A DNA stretch of 64,000 nt from Candidatus Polarisedimenticolia bacterium. Its GTDB lineage: Bacteria > Acidobacteriota > Polarisedimenticolia > Gp22-AA2 > AA152. Location: NCBI GenBank assembly GCA_036004685.1, contig DASYRE010000049.1:1-64000 (forward strand). Reading direction: 5' to 3'. Under the pieces are notes generated by a model. The model was not told where the DNA came from, searched no databases, and was given only the letters and a program-made list of their open reading frames with translations. Shown one piece after another: positions 8,858 through 23,034 of this stretch (position 1 is its first letter; every line of letters begins with the position of its first letter). Both the position numbers and the translations under genes were made by a program.

Positions 8858-10792
8858 TCAGAGATTGCTGGGAAGGTCATCACCGAGGAGCGTGCTCTCG
8901 CCGAAGAGAGAGAATCCGCCGCCCCACACGATCGAGTCGGCGCTGATCCCGCCGCCCCACACGATCGAATCGGCGCTCATGCCGCCACCCCACACGATCG
9001 AGTCGGCGCTCATGCCGCCGCCCCACACGATCGAGTCGGCGCTCATGCCACCGCCCCACACAATCGAGTCGGCCCTCATGCCGCCGCCCCACACGATCGA
9101 GTCGGCCCTCATGCCGCCGCCCCACACAATCGAGTCGGCCCTCATGCCGCCGCCCCACACGATCGAGCTGGCCCCGGCGTTGCCCGGTGCGACGCTTCCG
9201 CTGGAGGAGGCCGCGGCGCGGCGGCCCCATACCGTCGCGTCGCCCCAGACGGCGCCGGTGCCGCGCTGCGGATCGGAACCCCAGATTACGTCGCCGCCCC
9301 AGACCGCCGCGTCGCCCCAGAGGGTTCCCGGGTCCTGGAAGAGGATTCCGGTCTCCGTCCACGTCGCCTTGGGGGAAAGCGCCGGAAGCAGGGCGACGTC
9401 TGCGAGGCCCAGGGCCGTGATGAGATCGGCGAACCCGGCGCCTTCGGAGAAGACGTCGTAGCCCAGGCGCTTCTCGGCCCCCTTCATCAGACGGGCCTTC
9501 ACCGTGTCCGGGGTGATGAGAGGCTGAGCCTGGATCATCAGCGCCGCCATGCCGGAGACGACGCCCGCCGACATGCTCGAGCCGCTCAGCTCGAAGTAGG
9601 GGGAGTCGAGCTGTGCCGCCGCGGGGTCGCTCCGATAGGCGCCCTGCTTTACGCGCAGCGCCGCATAGGCCGTGTCGAGAGCCGAGCCTTCGGCGCGCAG
9701 CGAGATGGTCCGGTTGCCCGGCGCCACCAGATCGGGCTTGACGACGTGATCCAGGTAGGTCGGTCCGCGGGAAGTATAAGAAGTCAGAACGTCGTCAGGC
9801 CGGACCGCGCTCCGGTAATTGTTGGAGGCTCCCACCGTGATGATCGAGGGATCGTTGCCGGGGCTGTGAATCGTCGCGTAGCCTCCCGTCCCCGAGTTCC
9901 CCGCGGCCGCCACCACGACGATGCCGGACCTCCAGGCGAGTTCGACCGCCTGGCAGAGGGGATCGTCGACGTACGATTGCTCCACCGAATGGCCCAGCGA
10001 CAGGTTCATCACGCGGATGTTGTAGGCAGACCGGTTCAGGACGACCCAGTTGATGCCGGCCAGAACGTCGCTGACCCGGCCGCTTCCATCCGGGCCCAGG
10101 ACGCGCACCGAGACGAGCTTCGCCTTGGGGGCGATTCCATTGAAACGCCTGAAGGACTGCGAGTCGCTGCTGGCGCTGCCGTCGCCGGCGATGATTCCGG
10201 CGACGTGCGTCCCGTGGCCGTAGTAATCCGCGAATCCCTTCTCGTGACCGACCACCTCCACTTCCGCCACCTGGCGGCTGCCGATGTCGGAATGATTGGC
10301 GATCCCGGAGTCGACCACCGCCACCGTCACTCCGGCGCCGTTAAGAGAGGACCCGAGAGGCGTGGTCTGGCGCGCCGCCTGGTCGGCGCCCACCGTGACG
10401 TAGTTCAGGTCGTTGAAGGATCGGACGATGAAGTCGTAGGAGACGTGGCGGACGTTCCTGCCGCGGGAGAGCGAGCGCAGCGAGCCTGCCGGAACCGATG
10501 CCGAATAGGCGCCGAGCTGGCTGAAGCGCCGGCCGGCGCGGACTCCAAGCAACTGCGCCGCGGCGTCGTCCGCCTCATCGGAAGGCTCGGTCGTCGACAC
10601 GATCACGGGAACCATGTCATCCGGCTCGAGAGCTTCAAGGAGCTTGATCAGCCGCGGGCTCAAGCGCGAATCGTCGGAACTTTCGGCCGCCTGCGCCGCC
10701 GGCCAGCTGGCCCAGTCGAAGATCCCTCCCGAAAGGATCAGGACGAGCGCCAGAATGATCGCCATCCTTCGATTTCGTTTGCGAGCCGGCAT
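8858..10792 (-). CDS. Secreted subtilisin-like (S8) protease with WGGG repeat tail
   Basis: A 644-residue serine protease. A basic N-terminus and signal peptide (to about residue 36) precede a short propeptide-like region. The catalytic Asp is in VAVVDSGIANHSD, the His in YGHGTHVAGI, the oxyanion Asn in VAAAGNSGTGG, and the nucleophile Ser in SGSSMSAGVVSGMA. After the catalytic domain come several VWGD/VWGG half-repeats, then eight near-identical 11-residue units (ADSIVWGGGM) and a short tail. Similar IVWG arrays are known in acidobacterial S8 peptidases; their job is not known. A GGGGAGG ribosome site precedes the ATG. The tail may mediate surface attachment or self-assembly, which is inference. 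Confidence 0.92.
   Translation of the reverse strand: MPARKRNRRMAIILALVLILSGGIFDWASWPAAQAAESSDDSRLSPRLIKLLEALEPDDMVPVIVSTTEPSDEADDAAAQLLGVRAGRRFSQLGAYSASVPAGSLRSLSRGRNVRHVSYDFIVRSFNDLNYVTVGADQAARQTTPLGSSLNGAGVTVAVVDSGIANHSDIGSRQVAEVEVVGHEKGFADYYGHGTHVAGIIAGDGSASSDSQSFRRFNGIAPKAKLVSVRVLGPDGSGRVSDVLAGINWVVLNRSAYNIRVMNLSLGHSVEQSYVDDPLCQAVELAWRSGIVVVAAAGNSGTGGYATIHSPGNDPSIITVGASNNYRSAVRPDDVLTSYTSRGPTYLDHVVKPDLVAPGNRTISLRAEGSALDTAYAALRVKQGAYRSDPAAAQLDSPYFELSGSSMSAGVVSGMAALMIQAQPLITPDTVKARLMKGAEKRLGYDVFSEGAGFADLITALGLADVALLPALSPKATWTETGILFQDPGTLWGDAAVWGGDVIWGSDPQRGTGAVWGDATVWGRRAAASSSGSVAPGNAGASSIVWGGGMRADSIVWGGGMRADSIVWGGGMRADSIVWGGGMSADSIVWGGGMSADSIVWGGGMSADSIVWGGGISADSIVWGGGFSLFGESTLLGDDLPSNL
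8916..9169. repeat. 33-bp in-frame tandem repeat, eight copies
   Basis: The CACACRATCGAG core recurs eight times at an exact 33-base spacing, from 8925 to 9156. It encodes the SIVWGGG units at the C-terminus of the S8 protease. Copies differ mostly at third positions and at Arg/Ser before Ala-Asp, which fits slippage or gene-conversion growth under protein-level selection. Confidence 0.95.
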
Positions 10793-12345: not shown

Positions 12346-14067
12346 TCAGGGGCTCGCGGCCGCAGGCCGGCCCGGCGCTCCCGGGGGCGGCTCGGTGATC
12401 GCCAGGGTTTGATCCGCGGCCACGCCTTGGAGCACCTGGATCGCTCCGGAGGGCCAGCGAATCTCCACGCGGTCGGCTCTTGGCGAGTCACCCAGGCCGA
12501 AGTGGAGGATGAGCTCGTTCTGGGAGAGATAAGAAGTCCCGCTCCGGATCTCGTCGATCTGGCGTCTCTTTCCCACCGTCACGACCGCCCGCGCTCCGAT
12601 GGCGTCCCGGTTCGAGCGCCTCCCGGAAAACCGGAGGCGCAAGAAGTGGCTCCGGTTGCCGCCGTCGTTGCGCAGCAGCGCGGCCGGTGAATCGTGGTTG
12701 CTGAGGACGACGTCGAGATCGCCGTCGCCATCCAGGTCGGCCACCGCCATTCCCCTTCCCACCTGTGCGGTGGAGAAATACGGGCCCCTCTCGGGACCGA
12801 CTTCACGCATCTTTCCGTGGCCCTGGTTCTCGAACAAGAAGGCCCGCTGTTCGTAGCTGAGCGAGTCGTTGAACTGCTTGATGTTGTCGATGATGTGACC
12901 GTTCGTCACGAACAGGTCCTGATCGCCGTCGTTGTCGATGTCGAACAGGTTCGTGCCGAAGCCGACGAACGGGATGCTGATCTCGCCGATCCCGGACGGA
13001 AAGGTGGCGACCTCGAAGCGCAGCCCGCCAAGATTCCGCCAGAGCTCGTTCGGCTCCCCCGAGAGGTTCGTGACGATGAGGTCGAAGCGGCCGTCGTTGT
13101 CGTAGTCGCCGGAATCCACTCCCATCCCGGCCTCGGGCCTGCCGTCCTCGCTGTAGCCGGTGCCCGACTCCAGCGTCACGTCGGTGAACGTGCCGTTCCC
13201 GTTGTTTCGGTAGAGGACGCCCGGCACGGAGTCCTTGGCCACGTAGACGTCGAGATCGCCGTCCAAGTCGAGATCGCTCCAGACCACTCCCAGCCCCTTC
13301 CCCCAGTGCTCGGTGAGCCCCGCCTTGCGCGTCACCTCGGTGAAGGTGCCGTCGCCGTTGTTGTGATAGAGAGTGTCCGGCACCCCTTCGTAGGCGTCGG
13401 GGTGGCAATAAGCCCGGATCTTGCGCACCGGATCGCCGCACCATTTGTTGTGATCCAGGTTGAAGTCGACGTAGTTCGCGACGAACAGGTCGAGGCGCCC
13501 GTCGCCGTCGTAATCGGCGAACGCGGCGCTGGTGCTCCACAGGGGGTCGGTGACGCCCGCCTGCTTCGTGACGTCGCGGAACGTGCCGTCCCCGTTGTTC
13601 CGGTAGAGGATGTTGGGGCCGAAGTTCGTCACGTACAGATCGATTCGACCGTCGTTGTCGTAATCTCCCGCGGCGCATCCCATTCCATACCCGTACCCGG
13701 CGACTCCCGCCTGCCGCGTGACGTCGGCAAAACGCCCTTTCCCGTCGTTCCGATACAGGACGTTGCCGGGGCGCCCGGCTCCGCTCCGGACCGGACCCGA
13801 TTGCACGAAGTAGAGATCGGGATCTCCGTCCGCGTCATAGTCCAGAACGCACACCCCCGAGCCCATGTCCTCGATCATGTTCTTCTCCGCCGTCGCGCCC
13901 GACACGTGACGGAAGGCGATCCCCGAAGCGGCCGCCACCTCCGTGAAAGTCGGCTTGGCCGGCTTGGAGGCGGTGGGTCCGGCCGCCGGACCGGGGCCCG
14001 ACAGCGCCAGCAGGAAGCAGACGCAAGGAATCGCCGCGCCTCGCCTAGAAACCGGTCTTGTTCTCAC
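12346..14067 (-). CDS. CRTAC1-type FG-GAP/ASPIC-UnbV secreted protein
   Basis: A 573-residue exported protein. After a signal sequence come repeated FG-GAP/VCBS units with Ca-binding DxDxDGxxD loops (for example DYDADGDPDLYF, DYDNDGRIDLYV, DLDGDLDVYV) that would form a beta-propeller. The C-terminal ASPIC/UnbV domain (about residues 480-560) includes IRSGTSYLSQNE. These proteins are extracellular and of unknown role. It is last in a three-gene leftward operon, and its start overlaps the end of the TPR lipoprotein gene by 23 bases, so co-translation is likely. Confidence 0.9.
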   Translation of the reverse strand: MRTRPVSRRGAAIPCVCFLLALSGPGPAAGPTASKPAKPTFTEVAAASGIAFRHVSGATAEKNMIEDMGSGVCVLDYDADGDPDLYFVQSGPVRSGAGRPGNVLYRNDGKGRFADVTRQAGVAGYGYGMGCAAGDYDNDGRIDLYVTNFGPNILYRNNGDGTFRDVTKQAGVTDPLWSTSAAFADYDGDGRLDLFVANYVDFNLDHNKWCGDPVRKIRAYCHPDAYEGVPDTLYHNNGDGTFTEVTRKAGLTEHWGKGLGVVWSDLDLDGDLDVYVAKDSVPGVLYRNNGNGTFTDVTLESGTGYSEDGRPEAGMGVDSGDYDNDGRFDLIVTNLSGEPNELWRNLGGLRFEVATFPSGIGEISIPFVGFGTNLFDIDNDGDQDLFVTNGHIIDNIKQFNDSLSYEQRAFLFENQGHGKMREVGPERGPYFSTAQVGRGMAVADLDGDGDLDVVLSNHDSPAALLRNDGGNRSHFLRLRFSGRRSNRDAIGARAVVTVGKRRQIDEIRSGTSYLSQNELILHFGLGDSPRADRVEIRWPSGAIQVLQGVAADQTLAITEPPPGAPGRPAAASP

Positions 14068-15160
14068 CGATCGCCTCCAGCCGGTCGAACGCCTCCCGCT
14101 CGCGGCGGCTCTTTTCCTCTTCGCCGCTCTGCTGATAGAGCACGGCCAGGAGGTAGTGCGCCTCGGTCAGCTTCGGGTCGCTCGCCACCGCCTTTTCCAG
14201 CGCCGCCCTCGCCTCTTCCGGCCGTTTCATCTTGAGCAGGCATTGCGCCCTCCCCAGCTGGTAGCGGCCCGACTCCGGAGAAATCGCCAGCAGCCGGTCG
14301 TATTCCTTGAGCGCCGCGACGTAGTCCGCCGTGAGGAAGAGCTCCCGCGCGTTTCCTTCGGCCGCCCGGTCCTTCGCCTGCCGGTCCCACAGGCGCACGA
14401 AGATCTCCTGCTCCCGCGCCGCCTCGGCCTTTTTCCCGCGCCGTGCGTAGACCTTGGCGAGATTGAAATGGGCCTGGCTGTTCTCCGGCGCCAGCGCGAT
14501 CGCCCTCCCCAGCTCCTCCTCGGCGCGGCCATCGTCCCCGCCGCGCATGAAGCAGAGTCCGAGCATGTAGTGCGCCTCGGCGTGGCCGGGCATCTCCACG
14601 AGGAGGCGTCCCAGAAGGCTGCGGGCCTCCGCGTAATCGCCGGCGCGGTAGCGGACCAATCCGAGGTTGTAAAGAGATTGCGGATCTTGCGGATGGCGCT
14701 CCAGCACTTCACGGAAGAGCCGGGTCGCCTCCTCGTAGTCTCCCAGCCGCAGGGCGATGCGGGCGAGGCCGAGGCGCGGCTCCGGGGCTTCGGGGTGGAT
14801 CGCCAGCAGGCGCCGGTACTCCTCCTTCGCCGGGGCGTACTGTCTGGCCTGCGTCAGCGCGGCGCCGAGAAGAGTCGACACGCGGGTGTCGGCCGGAACG
14901 AGATCGCGCGCTTTCTGGAAGGAGGAGGCGGCTTCGTGGTATCTCCCCTGCCGGTACTCGCCCACTCCCTCGTTCACCCATCGTGCCGCTTCGGCCGGGA
15001 GACCCCAGTCGGGATGGGACGGCGTCGGGGGGCCGGACGGCTTTGCCGGCGCCGTCCGGGTGGCCGGGCTGGAAGCCTCGCGACGGCCGCAGCCGGAAGC
15101 CAGGAGTAGACAGATTCCCGCGCCGGCGGCCACGCGCCGCAGCGCTCCTCCGCGGCTCAT
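14045..15160 (-). CDS. TPR-repeat lipoprotein
   Basis: A 371-residue lipoprotein. The ATG at 15160 has a GGGAGA ribosome site and opens on a signal ending in LLASGC (Cys about 25). The rest is a run of about eight tetratricopeptide repeats (for example GLARIALRLGDYEEATRLFR, LYNLGLVRYRAGDYAEARSL, AHFNLAKVYARRGKKAEAAR). It would be a periplasmic or outer-membrane scaffold. The start overlaps the stop of the small membrane protein gene (ATGA). TPR partners of CRTAC1-type propellers recur in environmental genomes, but their role is unproven. Confidence 0.85.
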   Translation of the reverse strand: MSRGGALRRVAAGAGICLLLASGCGRREASSPATRTAPAKPSGPPTPSHPDWGLPAEAARWVNEGVGEYRQGRYHEAASSFQKARDLVPADTRVSTLLGAALTQARQYAPAKEEYRRLLAIHPEAPEPRLGLARIALRLGDYEEATRLFREVLERHPQDPQSLYNLGLVRYRAGDYAEARSLLGRLLVEMPGHAEAHYMLGLCFMRGGDDGRAEEELGRAIALAPENSQAHFNLAKVYARRGKKAEAAREQEIFVRLWDRQAKDRAAEGNARELFLTADYVAALKEYDRLLAISPESGRYQLGRAQCLLKMKRPEEARAALEKAVASDPKLTEAHYLLAVLYQQSGEEEKSRREREAFDRLEAIGENKTGF

Positions 15161-15363
15161 CGCCCCGTCTCTCCCTTGGCGGCGTCCCCCCGGGAGCCGC
15201 GCGAAAGGAGGAGGACCCTCTTGACCACCGGATGTCCGACCGCGACCGCCGCGAGGAGCAGGAGAATCAAGGGGTAGAGAATCGTTCCGACGATCATGGC
15301 CGCGGCGCAGAGAGTGAACGACCCGACGACGCTCCATCGTTTCCTTGTTCCACCGGCTCGCAT
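15157..15363 (-). CDS. Small membrane protein (68 aa)
   Basis: A 68-residue protein with a basic N-terminus, one or two hydrophobic helices spanning about residues 13-45, and a basic C-terminal tail. A strong GGGGAG ribosome site precedes the ATG, and it overlaps the TPR lipoprotein start by four bases. It heads the leftward operon. I do not recognise the family. Confidence 0.65.
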   Translation of the reverse strand: MRAGGTRKRWSVVGSFTLCAAAMIVGTILYPLILLLLAAVAVGHPVVKRVLLLSRGSRGDAAKGETGR

Positions 15364-15434
15364 GTCGTTCTCCCCGCGATCAGCTCGGCGAGGATAGCAT
15401 ATCCCGGGAAGGGCTTCGGGACGGCCGCTCCACG

Positions 15435-15463
15435 TTGACGCTCCTCGGAGGCGACCGTATAAT
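15435..15463 (+). promoter_or_regulatory. Near-consensus promoter of the multiheme operon
   Basis: TTGACG (15435-15440), exactly 17 bases, TATAAT (15458-15463). The leader to the cytochrome ATG is about 90 bases. One of the best promoters in the window, so the operon is probably well expressed unless repressed. Confidence 0.82.
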
Positions 15464-15558
15464 TTTCGCCAGGGTCCGACCCGCGCGCGACGACGGGCGG
15501 GAACGGACGGCGGAATGCCGAGGCCTCGCACGGCCCAACCTCTGCATCGAGAACCAGG

Positions 15559-17478
15559 ATGACGACCGGCCCAGGCAGCCCCCAGGGGAAGGGAATCCTG
15601 TTTCCTGCCCTTGCCTTGGGGATCCTGCTCCTCGTGGCGCTGGGCGTCTCGCTGGTGTCGGGCCGCGGCGGCTATTCCCTGGGCTCCTCCGGCCGCACCG
15701 ATTGTCTTCGCTGCCACGCGCGGCCCGCCGATCTGAAAGGCGGAGGCGATCCCGGGCTGGTCGAGCAATGGCGCCGATCGGTGCACTTCCGCCGGGGGGT
15801 CGGGTGCGAGGACTGCCACGGAACGGACCACCAGAAGATGATCGAGACGCACGGAGAGGTCTCCGCGGGAAGGTGCGGAGCGTGCCACGCCGACCGGGTC
15901 CGCGAGTTCGCGAACCAGGGTCATGCCATCGCCTCGACCATGGCGGAATCGAATGCCCGGTTCCTGGCGCAATCCCCGGAGATGCGGCAGCAGGGGTGCA
16001 TGGGATGCCACGCCATCGGCAAGCGCTTTGCGGACGGCAGCGTCGGGAAATGCAACGCCTGCCACGTCGGCCACGCCTTCTCCGCCGAGCAGGCCCGTGA
16101 GCCGGAAGCCTGCATCACCTGCCACGTCGGGCCCGATCACCCGCAGAACGAATCCTACGAGGAGTCGAAGCACGGAATCGCCTACCGGGCGACGCGGGAC
16201 GTCAAGCAAGCCCCCACCTGCGCCTCCTGCCACATGCCCGGCGGGACCCATGACGTCACCTTCGGGATGACGCTGGGAGGCGCGGCCTTCGGGGGCGCGC
16301 TGGAGGGGGAGAGTCACAAGCTCCCCATGAAGACGCTCAGCCGGGCCGAGTTCGATCGCAAGCGCCGCGAGATGCTCCAGGTCTGCAGCGACTGCCATGC
16401 CACCTCCTTCGCGCGCGACTCTCTCGCCGGCGCCGATGCGATCAAGAAGCAGACCGACGCTCTCGTCGACCGGGCGGCGGGGATCGTCGAAGCCGTATGG
16501 CGGGCGGGAGCGCTCGATCCCCGTCCGGAAGATCGGCCTTCGAATCCGGTGGAAGGAGCGGTGCTGGTCCTCGGGACCCATCAGCTCTACGAGGAGACCT
16601 CCCCCCTGGAGCAGCGTTTCTTCGAGCTCTCCGCTTTCTTCGGGCCGACGACCTGGAAAGGGGCCTATCATCACTCTCCCGACCACACCCACTGGCTGGG
16701 GAACATGAAGGCCAAAGAGAGCCTCATCTACATCGAGGCAGAGGCGCGCCGCCTCACGGGGATCTCGTTCGCCAGAACGGAGTCGAATTGGCCCGCTCCG
16801 CCCGCACCGGATCTCGCCCGCGCCGCCTCTCCACCGACCCAGACCCGGCCGGCCCAGACGCGGCCCGCCGCGGCCGGCGTTCCGGCCCGTCCGGCGCCGC
16901 TCCCGCCGGCCTCGGAGACCCGCTCCCCCACCGATCCGGTCCACCCCGCCGCGCCGTTCTCGCGGACGTTTATCCCCCCTTCGGCTCTCGGAGTGCCCTT
17001 CAAGGCGGGCGCGCGGTATCTGGGAGATCGCTACTGCGAGGGATGTCACGCGGACGTCTACGGCTCCTGGCGCAGGACGGAGATGGCCGCCACGTTCGGC
17101 GCCCTTTTTCCCGGCGCCGATCGGGAGCCGAAGGTGAAGAGCCTCGGAATCGATCCCGACGCCGACTTCACCCACGATCGCACCTGCTTCCCCTGCCACA
17201 CGACCGGGTACGGCCAGCCCGGGGGATTCATTTCCCTGGAGAAGACGCCGAGCCGTCTCGGCGTGCAGTGCGAGTCGTGTCATGGCCCGGCGAGCGAATA
17301 CATGGACCACATGAACGCCCGGAAAGGAGGCGGCAAGGTGGCCAGCCCCGGCCTGGTCCTCGCCGACCAGCGCGTCTGCCTGCAGTGCCACCATCCGTCC
17401 GATCCCTGCCCCGATCCCAAGTACGTCTTCGATTACGCCTTGATGAAGACGAAGGGATTGCATGAAATCCACCGCTAA
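15559..17478 (+). CDS. 12-heme c-type cytochrome: HAO-like octaheme fused to c554-like tetraheme
   Basis: A 639-residue membrane-anchored cytochrome. One N-terminal helix (about 14-33) is followed by twelve CxxCH heme sites, starting at residues 49, 83, 106, 147, 165, 185, 221, 276, then 493, 543, 571 and 607. The first eight, with SKHGIAYRA, CASCHMPGGTHDV and the HHSPDHTHWLG segment near 375, resemble octaheme hydroxylamine-oxidoreductase-like proteins. A Pro/Ala-rich linker (about 415-470) leads to four hemes beginning YLGDRYCEGCHADVYGSW, as in cytochrome c554. In ammonia oxidisers HAO and c554 are separate redox partners, so the fusion suggests intramolecular electron transfer. The catalytic activity is unproven: the HAO P460 crosslinking tyrosine cannot be placed without alignment. 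Confidence 0.85.
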   Translation: MTTGPGSPQGKGILFPALALGILLLVALGVSLVSGRGGYSLGSSGRTDCLRCHARPADLKGGGDPGLVEQWRRSVHFRRGVGCEDCHGTDHQKMIETHGEVSAGRCGACHADRVREFANQGHAIASTMAESNARFLAQSPEMRQQGCMGCHAIGKRFADGSVGKCNACHVGHAFSAEQAREPEACITCHVGPDHPQNESYEESKHGIAYRATRDVKQAPTCASCHMPGGTHDVTFGMTLGGAAFGGALEGESHKLPMKTLSRAEFDRKRREMLQVCSDCHATSFARDSLAGADAIKKQTDALVDRAAGIVEAVWRAGALDPRPEDRPSNPVEGAVLVLGTHQLYEETSPLEQRFFELSAFFGPTTWKGAYHHSPDHTHWLGNMKAKESLIYIEAEARRLTGISFARTESNWPAPPAPDLARAASPPTQTRPAQTRPAAAGVPARPAPLPPASETRSPTDPVHPAAPFSRTFIPPSALGVPFKAGARYLGDRYCEGCHADVYGSWRRTEMAATFGALFPGADREPKVKSLGIDPDADFTHDRTCFPCHTTGYGQPGGFISLEKTPSRLGVQCESCHGPASEYMDHMNARKGGGKVASPGLVLADQRVCLQCHHPSDPCPDPKYVFDYALMKTKGLHEIHR

Positions 17479-19768
17479 TCCCTTCCCGGGGGGGGCGGCC
17501 ATCCCGCTGCTCGTGGTTCTCTGCCTCGCGCCGGCCGCCTGCCGGAGAGCGGCCCTCGCGCCGGGGCCCGAGGCCACTTACGTCGGCGCGGAGCGTTGCG
17601 CGGGATGCCACGCCGAGATCACCGGCCGCTGGAAGGCGACGGCTCACGGCAATCACGCCTTCGTCGCCTCGGACGCCGTGGTCAAAGGGGACTTCAAGCA
17701 CAAGAACGTCTACGTCTACCGAGGAGTGACCTCCCGGATGTGGACGGCGGACGGAAAGTACTTCATGGAGACGGAGGGGCCGGACGGCGCGCCGCACGCC
17801 TACCCGATCGATATCGTCCTCGGATGGCGCCAGACGCAGGTCTACCTGACCCGTTTTCCCGACGGCCGCTACCAGACGCTGCCGACCTACTTCGACGTCA
17901 AGGAGAACGCCTGGTTCGACCAGACCGAGGGGGTCGTCCCGAGCGGCGGGAAGAAGCTGACCCCCCGCGACCAGCTCTTCTGGGCGAATCGCGGGCGCAC
18001 CTGGAATTCCGGTTGCAGCGGCTGCCACGGAAGCCAGGTCGAGAAGAACTACGATCCCCGGTCCAATTCGTATCACACCACCTGGACCGACCTGACGATC
18101 AATTGCGAGACCTGCCACGGACCCGGGAGCCTGCATGTCGAGGCCTGGACCCGGGCCGGGACCGGAGGCGAGGTGGACGAGGCGAAAGCGGGACTCGTCA
18201 AGCTGGAGGCGCTCACGCCGGAAAGGCAGGTGGAGGTCTGCGCCCGGTGCCACGCCGCCAAAACCCCCATCGCGCGGGGATGGCAGCCCGGCAAACCGCT
18301 TCTCGAGTATTTTCAGCCGGCGGTCCCCGGGATGGAGCAGCAGTTCTTCTCCGACGGCCGCAACAAGGGGCTGAACTACGATTACGTCGCCTTCATCCAG
18401 AGTCTCTGCTACCGGCAAGGGAACCTGACTTGCACGGGATGCCACGCCGCCCACGGGGCGGGCAATCCGATCGATCTGATCGAGCCGGAGGAGCGGCTGG
18501 ACCGGGTCTGCGCGCCCTGTCACGCCGACATCGCCGCCGATGCTCCAGCGCACACCCATCACGCCGCCGGGAAGAGGGGAAGTCTCTGCGTCGACTGCCA
18601 CATGCCCAACGTGGACATCCTGGGGAAGCGCATCCAGGCGCGGGATCATTCCCTCTCCGTTCCCGTCCCCGGGAACACCAAGAATTTCGGGATTCCGAAC
18701 GCCTGCAATACCTGCCACCGCGATCGCGATCCTGAATGGTCGGCCAAGACCATCCAGGAGTGGTACCGCACCGACCAGCAGGATCGGATCCGTCTGACCG
18801 CCGCGTTCTTCTTCGGCTCGCGGAAGGCTCCCGAGGCCGCGCCGGTCCTTCTGGACCTGTTCAGGAATCGTGAAGCCCTCTCCCCGCCCCGCCGCGCCGG
18901 GATTCCCGCGATCCTGGCGGAGTACAACGACCCGGCGCTCCTGGCGCCTCTCGTCCCGGCGCTCCTCGATCCCCAGGAGGCGCTTCTCGTGCGCTACAAG
19001 GTGGCCGCCGCCATGGCTACGGTCCCCGCGCCGGCCACCGATCAGGCCCTGCTGCGGGCGCTTACCCGGCCGGAGCCGGCGGTCTCGCGGCTCGCCGGGA
19101 TCGAGCTCGCCCGGCGCGGCGTGAAGCCGCGCGATCCGGCGCTGCGCGCCGCGATCGGCCGAATCGTCAAGGAGCACGAAGAGCAGGTGGAGAAAGTGCG
19201 CGCCGACGTCCCCGAGGATCTCGCGAGCCTGGGGGACATCTACGCCAAGCGGGGTGAGGAAGACCGCGCGGTGGAGAAGTACGAAGCGGCGCTGAGGCTG
19301 AACTCCGAGCTTCCGGAGGTCCAGATCCGGCTGGGCACCTTGTACGCGCGCCGAAAGGAGGTCGAGCGCGCCGCGGCCTGCTTCCGGGCGGCCGCCGAAT
19401 TCCTGCCGCGCAGCGGCGTGCCCCTCTTCAACCTCGGGAGTCTCTATCTGCAGACGGGACGGAGCGCCGAGGCGATCCCTCACCTGACGAGGGCTCTCGA
19501 AATCGATCCCGGCTATCGGGAGGCCCGCTACAATCTCGCCGTGGCGCAGCTGGAGGACCGGCGCTTCGCCCCCGCGCTGGAAAACCTGAAGCGGCTCGCC
19601 CCGAGCCGGCCGGGGGATCCGATGATTCAGTATTATCTCGGCCGCGCCTTCGAGGGTCTGGGGCGCAAGGACGCCGCCGCCGACTCCTACCGCAAAGCGT
19701 TGGAAATCGCTCCCGATCTGTCGGACGCGCGAGGAGCGCTGGCGAAGCTGCAGGGGCCGCCGGGGTAG
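17462..19768 (+). CDS. Octaheme cytochrome-TPR lipoprotein
   Basis: A 768-residue protein overlapping the previous gene by 17 bases. The signal ends in a lipobox (APAAC). The N-terminal half holds eight CxxCH sites (CAGCH near residue 46, then CSGCH, CETCH, CARCH, CTGCH, CAPCH, CVDCH, CNTCH). The middle is an Ala/Leu-rich helical, HEAT-like stretch (about 430-565). The C-terminal 190 residues are five or so TPR units (for example LPEVQIRLGTLYARRKEVER). It is likely to receive electrons from the 12-heme partner at the cell surface, with the TPR part docking other proteins. Confidence 0.87.
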   Translation: MKSTANPFPGGAAIPLLVVLCLAPAACRRAALAPGPEATYVGAERCAGCHAEITGRWKATAHGNHAFVASDAVVKGDFKHKNVYVYRGVTSRMWTADGKYFMETEGPDGAPHAYPIDIVLGWRQTQVYLTRFPDGRYQTLPTYFDVKENAWFDQTEGVVPSGGKKLTPRDQLFWANRGRTWNSGCSGCHGSQVEKNYDPRSNSYHTTWTDLTINCETCHGPGSLHVEAWTRAGTGGEVDEAKAGLVKLEALTPERQVEVCARCHAAKTPIARGWQPGKPLLEYFQPAVPGMEQQFFSDGRNKGLNYDYVAFIQSLCYRQGNLTCTGCHAAHGAGNPIDLIEPEERLDRVCAPCHADIAADAPAHTHHAAGKRGSLCVDCHMPNVDILGKRIQARDHSLSVPVPGNTKNFGIPNACNTCHRDRDPEWSAKTIQEWYRTDQQDRIRLTAAFFFGSRKAPEAAPVLLDLFRNREALSPPRRAGIPAILAEYNDPALLAPLVPALLDPQEALLVRYKVAAAMATVPAPATDQALLRALTRPEPAVSRLAGIELARRGVKPRDPALRAAIGRIVKEHEEQVEKVRADVPEDLASLGDIYAKRGEEDRAVEKYEAALRLNSELPEVQIRLGTLYARRKEVERAAACFRAAAEFLPRSGVPLFNLGSLYLQTGRSAEAIPHLTRALEIDPGYREARYNLAVAQLEDRRFAPALENLKRLAPSRPGDPMIQYYLGRAFEGLGRKDAAADSYRKALEIAPDLSDARGALAKLQGPPG

Positions 19769-22452: not shown

Positions 22453-23034
22453 ATGAAGCTTCGCTTCCTACGCTCGGCCGGAATCGCCGCCGCCGTGTTC
22501 GCCGCTCTCGCCGCCGGCGGCTGTTCGCCGGGGACCGGGGCCTTCACGCTTCCCGACGATCCCCTCGTAGGCCGGCCGGCGCCCCCCTTCGTCTTCCACA
22601 ACGTGCACCAACGCCCCTTTCCGTCGCTGAACTTCGCGGGCAAGACGCTGGTGCTCATTTTCGTCCGGGCGGGGCAGCCCGAGGTCCAGTCGCTGCTCCT
22701 GGAGATGGAAAGGATGCACCGGGAGCCGGAGTTCACCGCGGTCCAGTTCGTGGCCATCGCCCCGGAGCAGGATCCGATCACCCAGCCCTTTTGGATCGGA
22801 CTGCGCAACACCCTGCCTCTGGCGCTCGACTACACCGACACGGCCGGACGTTACGGGGCGGGATCGCTCCCGATGATCGTGGTCCGCGATTTCCGGGAGA
22901 TCATCCGCCTGAGGCTGGACGGCTTTACGGGAAAGGACTTCCGCCCGAAAATCGCGGCCGTTCGCAAGACCGTCCGGGAATCCGAGAACTTCCGGACGCA
23001 ACCCTCTTCCGCCTCCCCCTCCCCCACTCCCTGA
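22453..23034 (+). CDS. Thioredoxin-fold (AhpC/TSA-like) lipoprotein lacking catalytic cysteines
   Basis: A 193-residue lipoprotein (lipobox AAGGC, Cys about 24). The mature start LVGRPAPPFVFHNVHQRPF and the strand LVLIFVRAGQPEVQSLLLEM match the opening of peroxiredoxin/TlpA folds. Where the family has the CxxC or peroxidatic Cys, this protein has A-G-Q-P-E. A cis-Pro (GSLPMIVV) is kept. So the fold is present but thiol chemistry is not; it may bind a partner or metal. No ribosome site is obvious. The tail is Ser/Pro-rich. Confidence 0.72.
   Translation: MKLRFLRSAGIAAAVFAALAAGGCSPGTGAFTLPDDPLVGRPAPPFVFHNVHQRPFPSLNFAGKTLVLIFVRAGQPEVQSLLLEMERMHREPEFTAVQFVAIAPEQDPITQPFWIGLRNTLPLALDYTDTAGRYGAGSLPMIVVRDFREIIRLRLDGFTGKDFRPKIAAVRKTVRESENFRTQPSSASPSPTP

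Follow-up and report, generated by a model that had tools for sequence, protein, structure and literature searches.

A candidate nitrogen-oxide redox operon encoding a fused HAO-c554 cytochrome in a soil acidobacterium

Organization of the locus

The window analyzed here is a stretch of 64,000 nucleotides (contig DASYRE010000049.1, positions 1 to 64,000) from a Polarisedimenticolia bacterium of the phylum Acidobacteriota. Between positions 12346 and 19768 it holds two divergent operons whose starts lie 195 bp apart: a leftward trio encoding a 68-amino acid (aa) membrane protein, a TPR lipoprotein and a CRTAC1-type propeller, and a rightward pair encoding a 12-heme cytochrome and an 8-heme cytochrome with TPR repeats. 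A preliminary description of this DNA had given the five genes, their strands and coordinates and the 195-bp gap, all of which were confirmed, and had spoken of a redox locus with 20 hemes; this number agrees with the CXXCH motifs, of which the first cytochrome gene has exactly 12 and the second exactly 8. The identities of the two cytochromes, absent from that description, were found in the present follow-up. The 12-heme protein is a fusion of an HAO-like domain to a cytochrome c554-like domain; the 8-heme protein is related to OcwA and MccA. The features of the cytochrome operon are as follows.

15435..15463, + strand: sigma-70-type promoter of the cytochrome operon, TTGACG-17-TATAAT
15559..17478, + strand: 12-heme HAO-c554 fusion cytochrome, 639 aa; 12 CXXCH, N-terminal hydrophobic helix
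15697..16758, + strand: octaheme HAO-like domain, residues 47-400; PF13447, E 1.8e-19
15997..16011, + strand: heme-4 motif CMGCH, residues 147-151; fourth of the eight HAO-aligned CXXCH, position of the HAO catalytic heme
16759..17010, + strand: Pro/Ala-rich linker, residues 401-484, from alignment; shorter in relatives G001 and G002
17011..17418, + strand: tetraheme cytochrome c554-like domain, residues 485-620; PF13435, E 4e-31 (whole protein), and PDB 1bvb
17462..19768, + strand: 8-heme OcwA/MccA-like protein with HEAT and TPR repeats, 768 aa; 8 CXXCH, HEAT_2 and TPR matches; probable lipoprotein
17567..18769, + strand: octaheme domain of the 8-heme protein, residues 36-436, from profile comparison with PDB; beta-rich insertion between heme 1 and heme 2
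18779..19753, + strand: HEAT-like, then TPR repeats; PF13646 and TPR families, Foldseek TPR matches

The two cytochrome genes overlap by 17 bp. The near-consensus promoter noted in the preliminary description proved real: it matches 11 of the 12 consensus bases (two sites this good occur in 7.8 kb, against 0.3 expected), and TTGACG-17/18-TATACT precedes the 12-heme gene in both relatives that carry the locus, the remaining intergenic DNA having diverged. It is directed rightward only, towards the cytochromes; no leftward promoter was found. Ratios of nonsynonymous to synonymous substitution rates (dN/dS, NG86) between family members are about 0.13 for the 12-heme gene, 0.33 for the 8-heme gene, 0.23 for the CRTAC1 gene and 0.32 for the TPR lipoprotein gene, indicating that all four large genes are under purifying selection. 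Gene calls at the compared loci came from a simple script based on codon usage in place of a standard gene finder.

An HAO-like domain fused to a c554-like domain

Residues 47-400 of the 12-heme protein match HAO, HOX, HDH and Kustc0457 in PDB with E values of 1e-16 to 1e-27, entries 6t5e, 4n4j and 6h5l giving 1e-24 to 1e-27. Cysteines 49, 83, 106, 147, 165, 185, 221 and 276 align one-to-one with HAO hemes 1-8. The remaining four CXXCH motifs, at C493, C543, C571 and C607, belong to the c554-like half; its match to cytochrome c554 (1bvb, E 2e-17) spans residues 485-587 and thus covers the first three of these motifs. A Pro/Ala-rich linker joins the two domains. The fusion is an uninterrupted open reading frame (ORF) both in the window genome and in G002; in G001, contig ends interrupt the gene, yet a single ORF still spans the HAO C-terminus and c554. 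An assembly artefact is therefore unlikely.

In an AlphaFold2 model, many blocks of the HAO half reach pLDDT values of 70-93, and the long C-terminal helices of this half (282-315, 349-370 and 374-400) lie mostly at 83-93. The top PDB match of the model in Foldseek is the reducing HAO-like Kustc0457/0458 complex, 6h5l (E 2.9e-11, TM 0.41/0.50). A literature search found no description of an HAO-c554 fusion. The preliminary description had hinted at nitrogen oxides, a suggestion that the presence of HAO-like and c554-like domains supports.

Active-site residues and direction of the reaction

The pair D193-H194, located after heme 6, corresponds to D267-H268 of the 1fgj chain and is invariant in all 15 aligned sequences. 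Tyr467 of the same Nitrosomonas chain, the P460 cross-link residue, aligns with H378, or with W379 if a one-residue gap is shifted. The surrounding motif, PDHTHWLG, contains no Tyr and is found in the window protein and in both relatives (G001 and G002). Reductive HAOs have been described as carrying His at the cross-link site where oxidative ones carry Tyr (PMC12758564), or Trp in place of Tyr (PMC8940962). The 12-heme protein is probably a nitrogen-oxide reductase. The Tyr of an "NPDY" motif in standalone HAO-like relatives was also considered as the P460 Tyr and rejected, the Nitrosomonas alignment placing the site 2-3 residues further on; because the true site lies past this motif, the absence of Tyr is no longer regarded as distinguishing the fusion.

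In ammonia oxidizers, electrons pass physiologically from HAO to c554. The fusion of these very partners might accordingly be read as a device for oxidizing hydroxylamine (or hydrazine), with c554 as the exit for the electrons, as in Nitrosomonas. This seems very unlikely, as the protein lacks the P460-type Tyr that is considered to mark oxidative HAO (PMC12758564, PMC8940962).

The octaheme partner

When a profile of the heme domain of the second cytochrome was compared with PDB, OcwA (6i5b) was the best match (E 1.5e-34), MccA (4rkm) being among the top matches with E 1e-12. The AlphaFold2 model (pTM 0.74) shows strands at residues 83-153, where a beta-rich segment is inserted between the first two hemes, a trait common to OcwA and MccA (PMC6703420). 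By profile match and insertion, the protein belongs to the OcwA/MccA branch. The assignment was made with the heme-domain profile, a Foldseek search with the whole model being dominated by TPR matches. The lipobox is poor in the window genome, with Pro at -3, and good in G001 (LVLSC); judged by these N-termini, the protein is probably a lipoprotein.

OcwA is a nine-heme terminal reductase of the cell surface; nitrite and hydroxylamine are among its substrates, sulfite is not (PMC6703420). Its action on nitrite and hydroxylamine speaks for the nitrogen-oxide reading of the operon. The properties of OcwA also bear on two other readings. The 8-heme protein might be the enzyme, a reductase of sulfite or another oxyanion supplied with electrons by the 12-heme protein. 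MccA, with which it shares its number of hemes, is a sulfite reductase; however, OcwA matches far better and does not act on sulfite, making such a role most unlikely. Alternatively, both cytochromes might conduct electrons across the envelope, with minerals or shuttles as acceptors and the HAO fold acting only as a heme wire. The nature of OcwA, the closest solved relative of the 8-heme domain, speaks for this possibility and lends support to the external acceptors suggested in the preliminary description. So do the finding that, among named genomes, Geomonas has the closest standalone HAO-like relative, and the occurrence elsewhere in the window genome of an MtrB/PioB porin beside a 10-heme cytochrome. 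Against it, no porin was recognised beside the locus (the scanned neighbours, DUF3187, subtilase, HAMP and DUF2782 proteins, gave no match to an MtrB-like porin), and the fusion retains the Asp-His pair of the HAO active site, needless for a mere wire. Electron export is unlikely.

The porin (PF11854, E 4.8e-85) lies at 54.1-57.5 kb of contig C25 (L099 2106-5499, - strand); a 5-heme gene is close by, and the group is likely a porin-cytochrome conduit. Another observation concerns the subtilase encoded near the locus (window 8858-10765, - strand), which ends in seven near-identical repeats of the "ADSIVWGGGM" type.

Occurrence of the fusion and gene order in relatives

The fusion is present in three of the four genomes of the source family that were searched, each time with the 8-heme gene directly downstream and with the promoter. 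It was found in no other of the 41 genomes of the class or 199 genomes of the phylum searched. Coverage beyond the phylum consisted of one two-peptide pattern scan of GTDB r220, the pattern being derived from a two-sequence alignment, and of two genomes (Geomonas and a Chlorobiota MAG, metagenome-assembled genome). Outside the family, separate genes encode the HAO-like and c554-like halves, the HAO-like ones standing alone or in other operons. In a tree, the HAO half clusters with standalone proteins of Geomonas and of G100, a member of another family of the same phylum, with 90/89 support and long branches. Homologues of the 8-heme protein are present in 21 of 60 relatives; at the inspected loci outside the family, no CRTAC1, TPR lipoprotein or HAO-like gene adjoins them.

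Some of the HAO-like genes encountered have neighbours of their own. The Geomonas and G100 genes (L097 6949-9341, + strand; L092 8143-10589, - strand) encode nine hemes and share a 4-base overlap with an upstream gene, whose product of about 375 aa belongs to no recognised family; the Geomonas copy of that product gives faint hints of a beta-propeller. At L069 (3578-11722, + strand) an HAO-like octaheme gene forms an operon with genes for NrfD, a 4Fe-4S protein, a molybdopterin oxidoreductase and two 4-heme cytochromes. In G033 (L044 470-5493, + strand), adjacent genes with 23 and 40 CXXCH motifs lie near an HAO-like match.

The adjoining TPR-CRTAC1 genes

The leftward operon consists of three genes.

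12346..14067, - strand: CRTAC1-type secreted propeller; PF13517, E 1.9e-57, and PF07593, E 1.4e-23
14045..15160, - strand: TPR lipoprotein, start at 15160, lipobox LASGC; TPR_2, E 1.8e-39
15157..15363, - strand: 68-aa membrane protein (ORF)

The start of the TPR lipoprotein gene overlaps the stop of the membrane protein gene. The CRTAC1 product has six FG-GAP_3 stretches and an UnbV_ASPIC domain and matches cartilage acidic protein 1 (PDB 9etn, E 2e-30). Orthologues of the TPR lipoprotein exist in G001 and G002; the 68-aa protein has a homologue in G001 (E 2e-10), and a similar open frame was read by eye in the intergenic DNA of G002.

The preliminary description had proposed a single envelope machine with TPR scaffolds on both sides; in such a machine, the cytochromes would be held by the CRTAC1 propeller together with both TPR proteins. 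The operons are indeed divergent neighbours in three family genomes. This shared order was rejected as functional evidence; in the family, collinearity extends over everything between about 4.1 kb and 23.7 kb of the window, and since the entire ~20 kb has been kept, the order says little of a functional link. The test that had been proposed, conservation of the divergent order in relatives, turns out mostly against a single machine. Eight UnbV_ASPIC matches, distributed over six loci, occur in the window genome, and TPR-CRTAC1 pairs recur on contigs C15, C16 and C25 with no cytochromes in the inspected stretches. In the sister family, the nearest pair (CRTAC1 about 57% identical) likewise has no cytochrome nearby. 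A different sister-family pair has an 8-heme redoxin-c554 protein encoded within about 2 kb; the CRTAC1 of this pair falls on a remote branch of the tree, and the arrangement was therefore rejected as orthologous, the pair being a remote paralogue. In G034 a 5-heme TPR protein overlaps a CRTAC1 gene. Of the some 140 CRTAC1 matches listed outside the family, only about 5 have a c554/HAO-like match within about 6 kb, and 3 of these represent one conserved locus; by a rough estimate, this is no more than chance. Because the nearest and the recurrent pairs are free of cytochromes and the cytochrome-adjacent pair belongs to a remote branch, the TPR-CRTAC1 pair is best seen as a module of its own. 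The 8-heme homologues at the inspected loci outside the family are, in turn, not beside CRTAC1, and a single machine comprising both operons appears quite unlikely. A literature search found no description of loci combining CRTAC1, TPR and cytochrome genes.

The redoxin-c554 chain of the sister family (L064 11281-13314, + strand; also L065, L066 and L070) joins an AhpC/TSA redoxin to c554-like heme domains and has 8 CXXCH motifs, 6 in a copy cut by a contig end; at that place the window has only a redoxin gene (22453-23034). The G034 protein, a membrane protein of a type with 4-5 hemes and TPR repeats, has a homologue in the window genome, on contig C36, with no adjoining CRTAC1 gene (L068 4437-9087, + strand; L100 7154-10096, + strand).

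A model for the cytochrome operon

Taken together, the data are best explained by a model in which the rightward operon encodes a two-protein redox unit of the periplasm or envelope, made of an HAO-c554 nitrogen-oxide reductase and an OcwA/MccA-like partner, with the TPR-CRTAC1 operon standing apart. We would give this reading a probability of roughly 0.5. The 12-heme protein would be anchored in the membrane, its Tyr-less, reductive-type HAO-like domain wired internally to its own c554-like domain. Electrons from the quinol pool would reach the c554 domain by way of a donor and move through the heme chain of the HAO domain as far as heme 4, where nitrite, nitric oxide (NO) or hydroxylamine might be reduced in the periplasm. 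The co-transcribed octaheme lipoprotein would dock through its HEAT/TPR arm and could serve as electron donor, as electron acceptor or as a second reductase. The leftward genes would be a recurrent lipoprotein/secreted-propeller module, neighbouring the cytochromes by happenstance.

Neither a separate NrfA nor Hcp was found in the window genome, and so the fusion may be the only such reductase there. With two heme-copper oxidase matches also present, it is plausible that this otherwise aerobic soil bacterium detoxifies nitrogen oxides or uses them under microaerobic conditions.

Several observations weigh against this model. No dedicated quinol donor (NrfH, NapC or NrfD) was seen in the locus. 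Outside the family the 8-heme protein has no HAO-like neighbour, so the case for a partnership of the two cytochromes comes from operon adjacency in three related genomes. Standalone HAO-like relatives in the phylum likewise have no Tyr at the cross-link site, so its absence is not peculiar to the fusion. The c554 half of the AlphaFold2 model is unreliable (pLDDT mostly below 50), and in the G002 copy (L039 10178-11956, + strand) the first c554 motif reads CEGCD, not CEGCH, one heme ligand being lost or misread. The CRTAC1 genes found near c554-type multiheme/TPR genes in G004, G005 and G007 (one conserved place), G034 and G048 are a weak counter-signal to the separation of the two operons. 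Finally, the source genome is a draft MAG and the compared genomes are mostly drafts.

It is possible, if doubtful, that the single-chain reductase and the TPR octaheme lipoprotein form a complex, a previously undescribed 20-heme pair in a soil lineage of Acidobacteriota; if so, they would constitute a novel enzyme pair for the turnover of nitrite, NO or hydroxylamine. HAO and c554, known from textbooks as the enzyme and electron carrier of ammonia oxidizers, are here fused and Tyr-less in an uncultivated soil acidobacterium. The fusion offers a single, testable protein for studying how HAO-type enzymes run as reductases are wired, and could be a marker for unrecognised nitrogen-oxide turnover in soil. 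HAO matches obtained with hidden Markov models in such genomes should not be taken as ammonia oxidation.

Comparison with known systems

The two halves of the 12-heme protein are homologous to Nitrosomonas HAO and cytochrome c554. Those are separate, oxidative proteins with a P460 cross-link at Tyr467, whereas the window protein is fused and has no Tyr: where oxidative HAO and HDH have their cross-linking residue, it has H378/W379, sharing the absence of Tyr (His or Trp instead) with the reductive enzymes eHao, HAOr and Kustc0457. Epsilonproteobacterial Hao (eHao) and anammox HAOr are octaheme, reductive and without Tyr at the key site, features that match the window domain, whose reductive role is predicted from its residues; neither is known to have a fused c554 domain. 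Closer in design is the Kuenenia complex Kustc0457/Kustc0458 (6h5l), in which a Tyr-less octaheme HAO-like subunit likewise has its electron path extended by an extra cytochrome. Kustc0458 is a separate diheme protein, whereas the extra cytochrome of the window protein is c554-like, has four hemes and is part of the same chain.

As for the 8-heme protein, Thermincola OcwA (6i5b) and MccA (4rkm) have the same c554-like plus NrfA-like heme chain and the same beta insertion between hemes 1 and 2 (PMC6703420). OcwA differs in having nine hemes rather than eight, in lacking the long HEAT/TPR extension and in coming from a Gram-positive organism, the window protein being a probable Gram-negative lipoprotein. 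The TPR-CRTAC1 unit, finally, resembles other CRTAC1/ASPIC-TPR pairs: the two-gene arrangement is repeated in the window genome and in relatives, and among the copies inspected in the window genome, only the one at the 12-heme/8-heme locus has cytochromes alongside.

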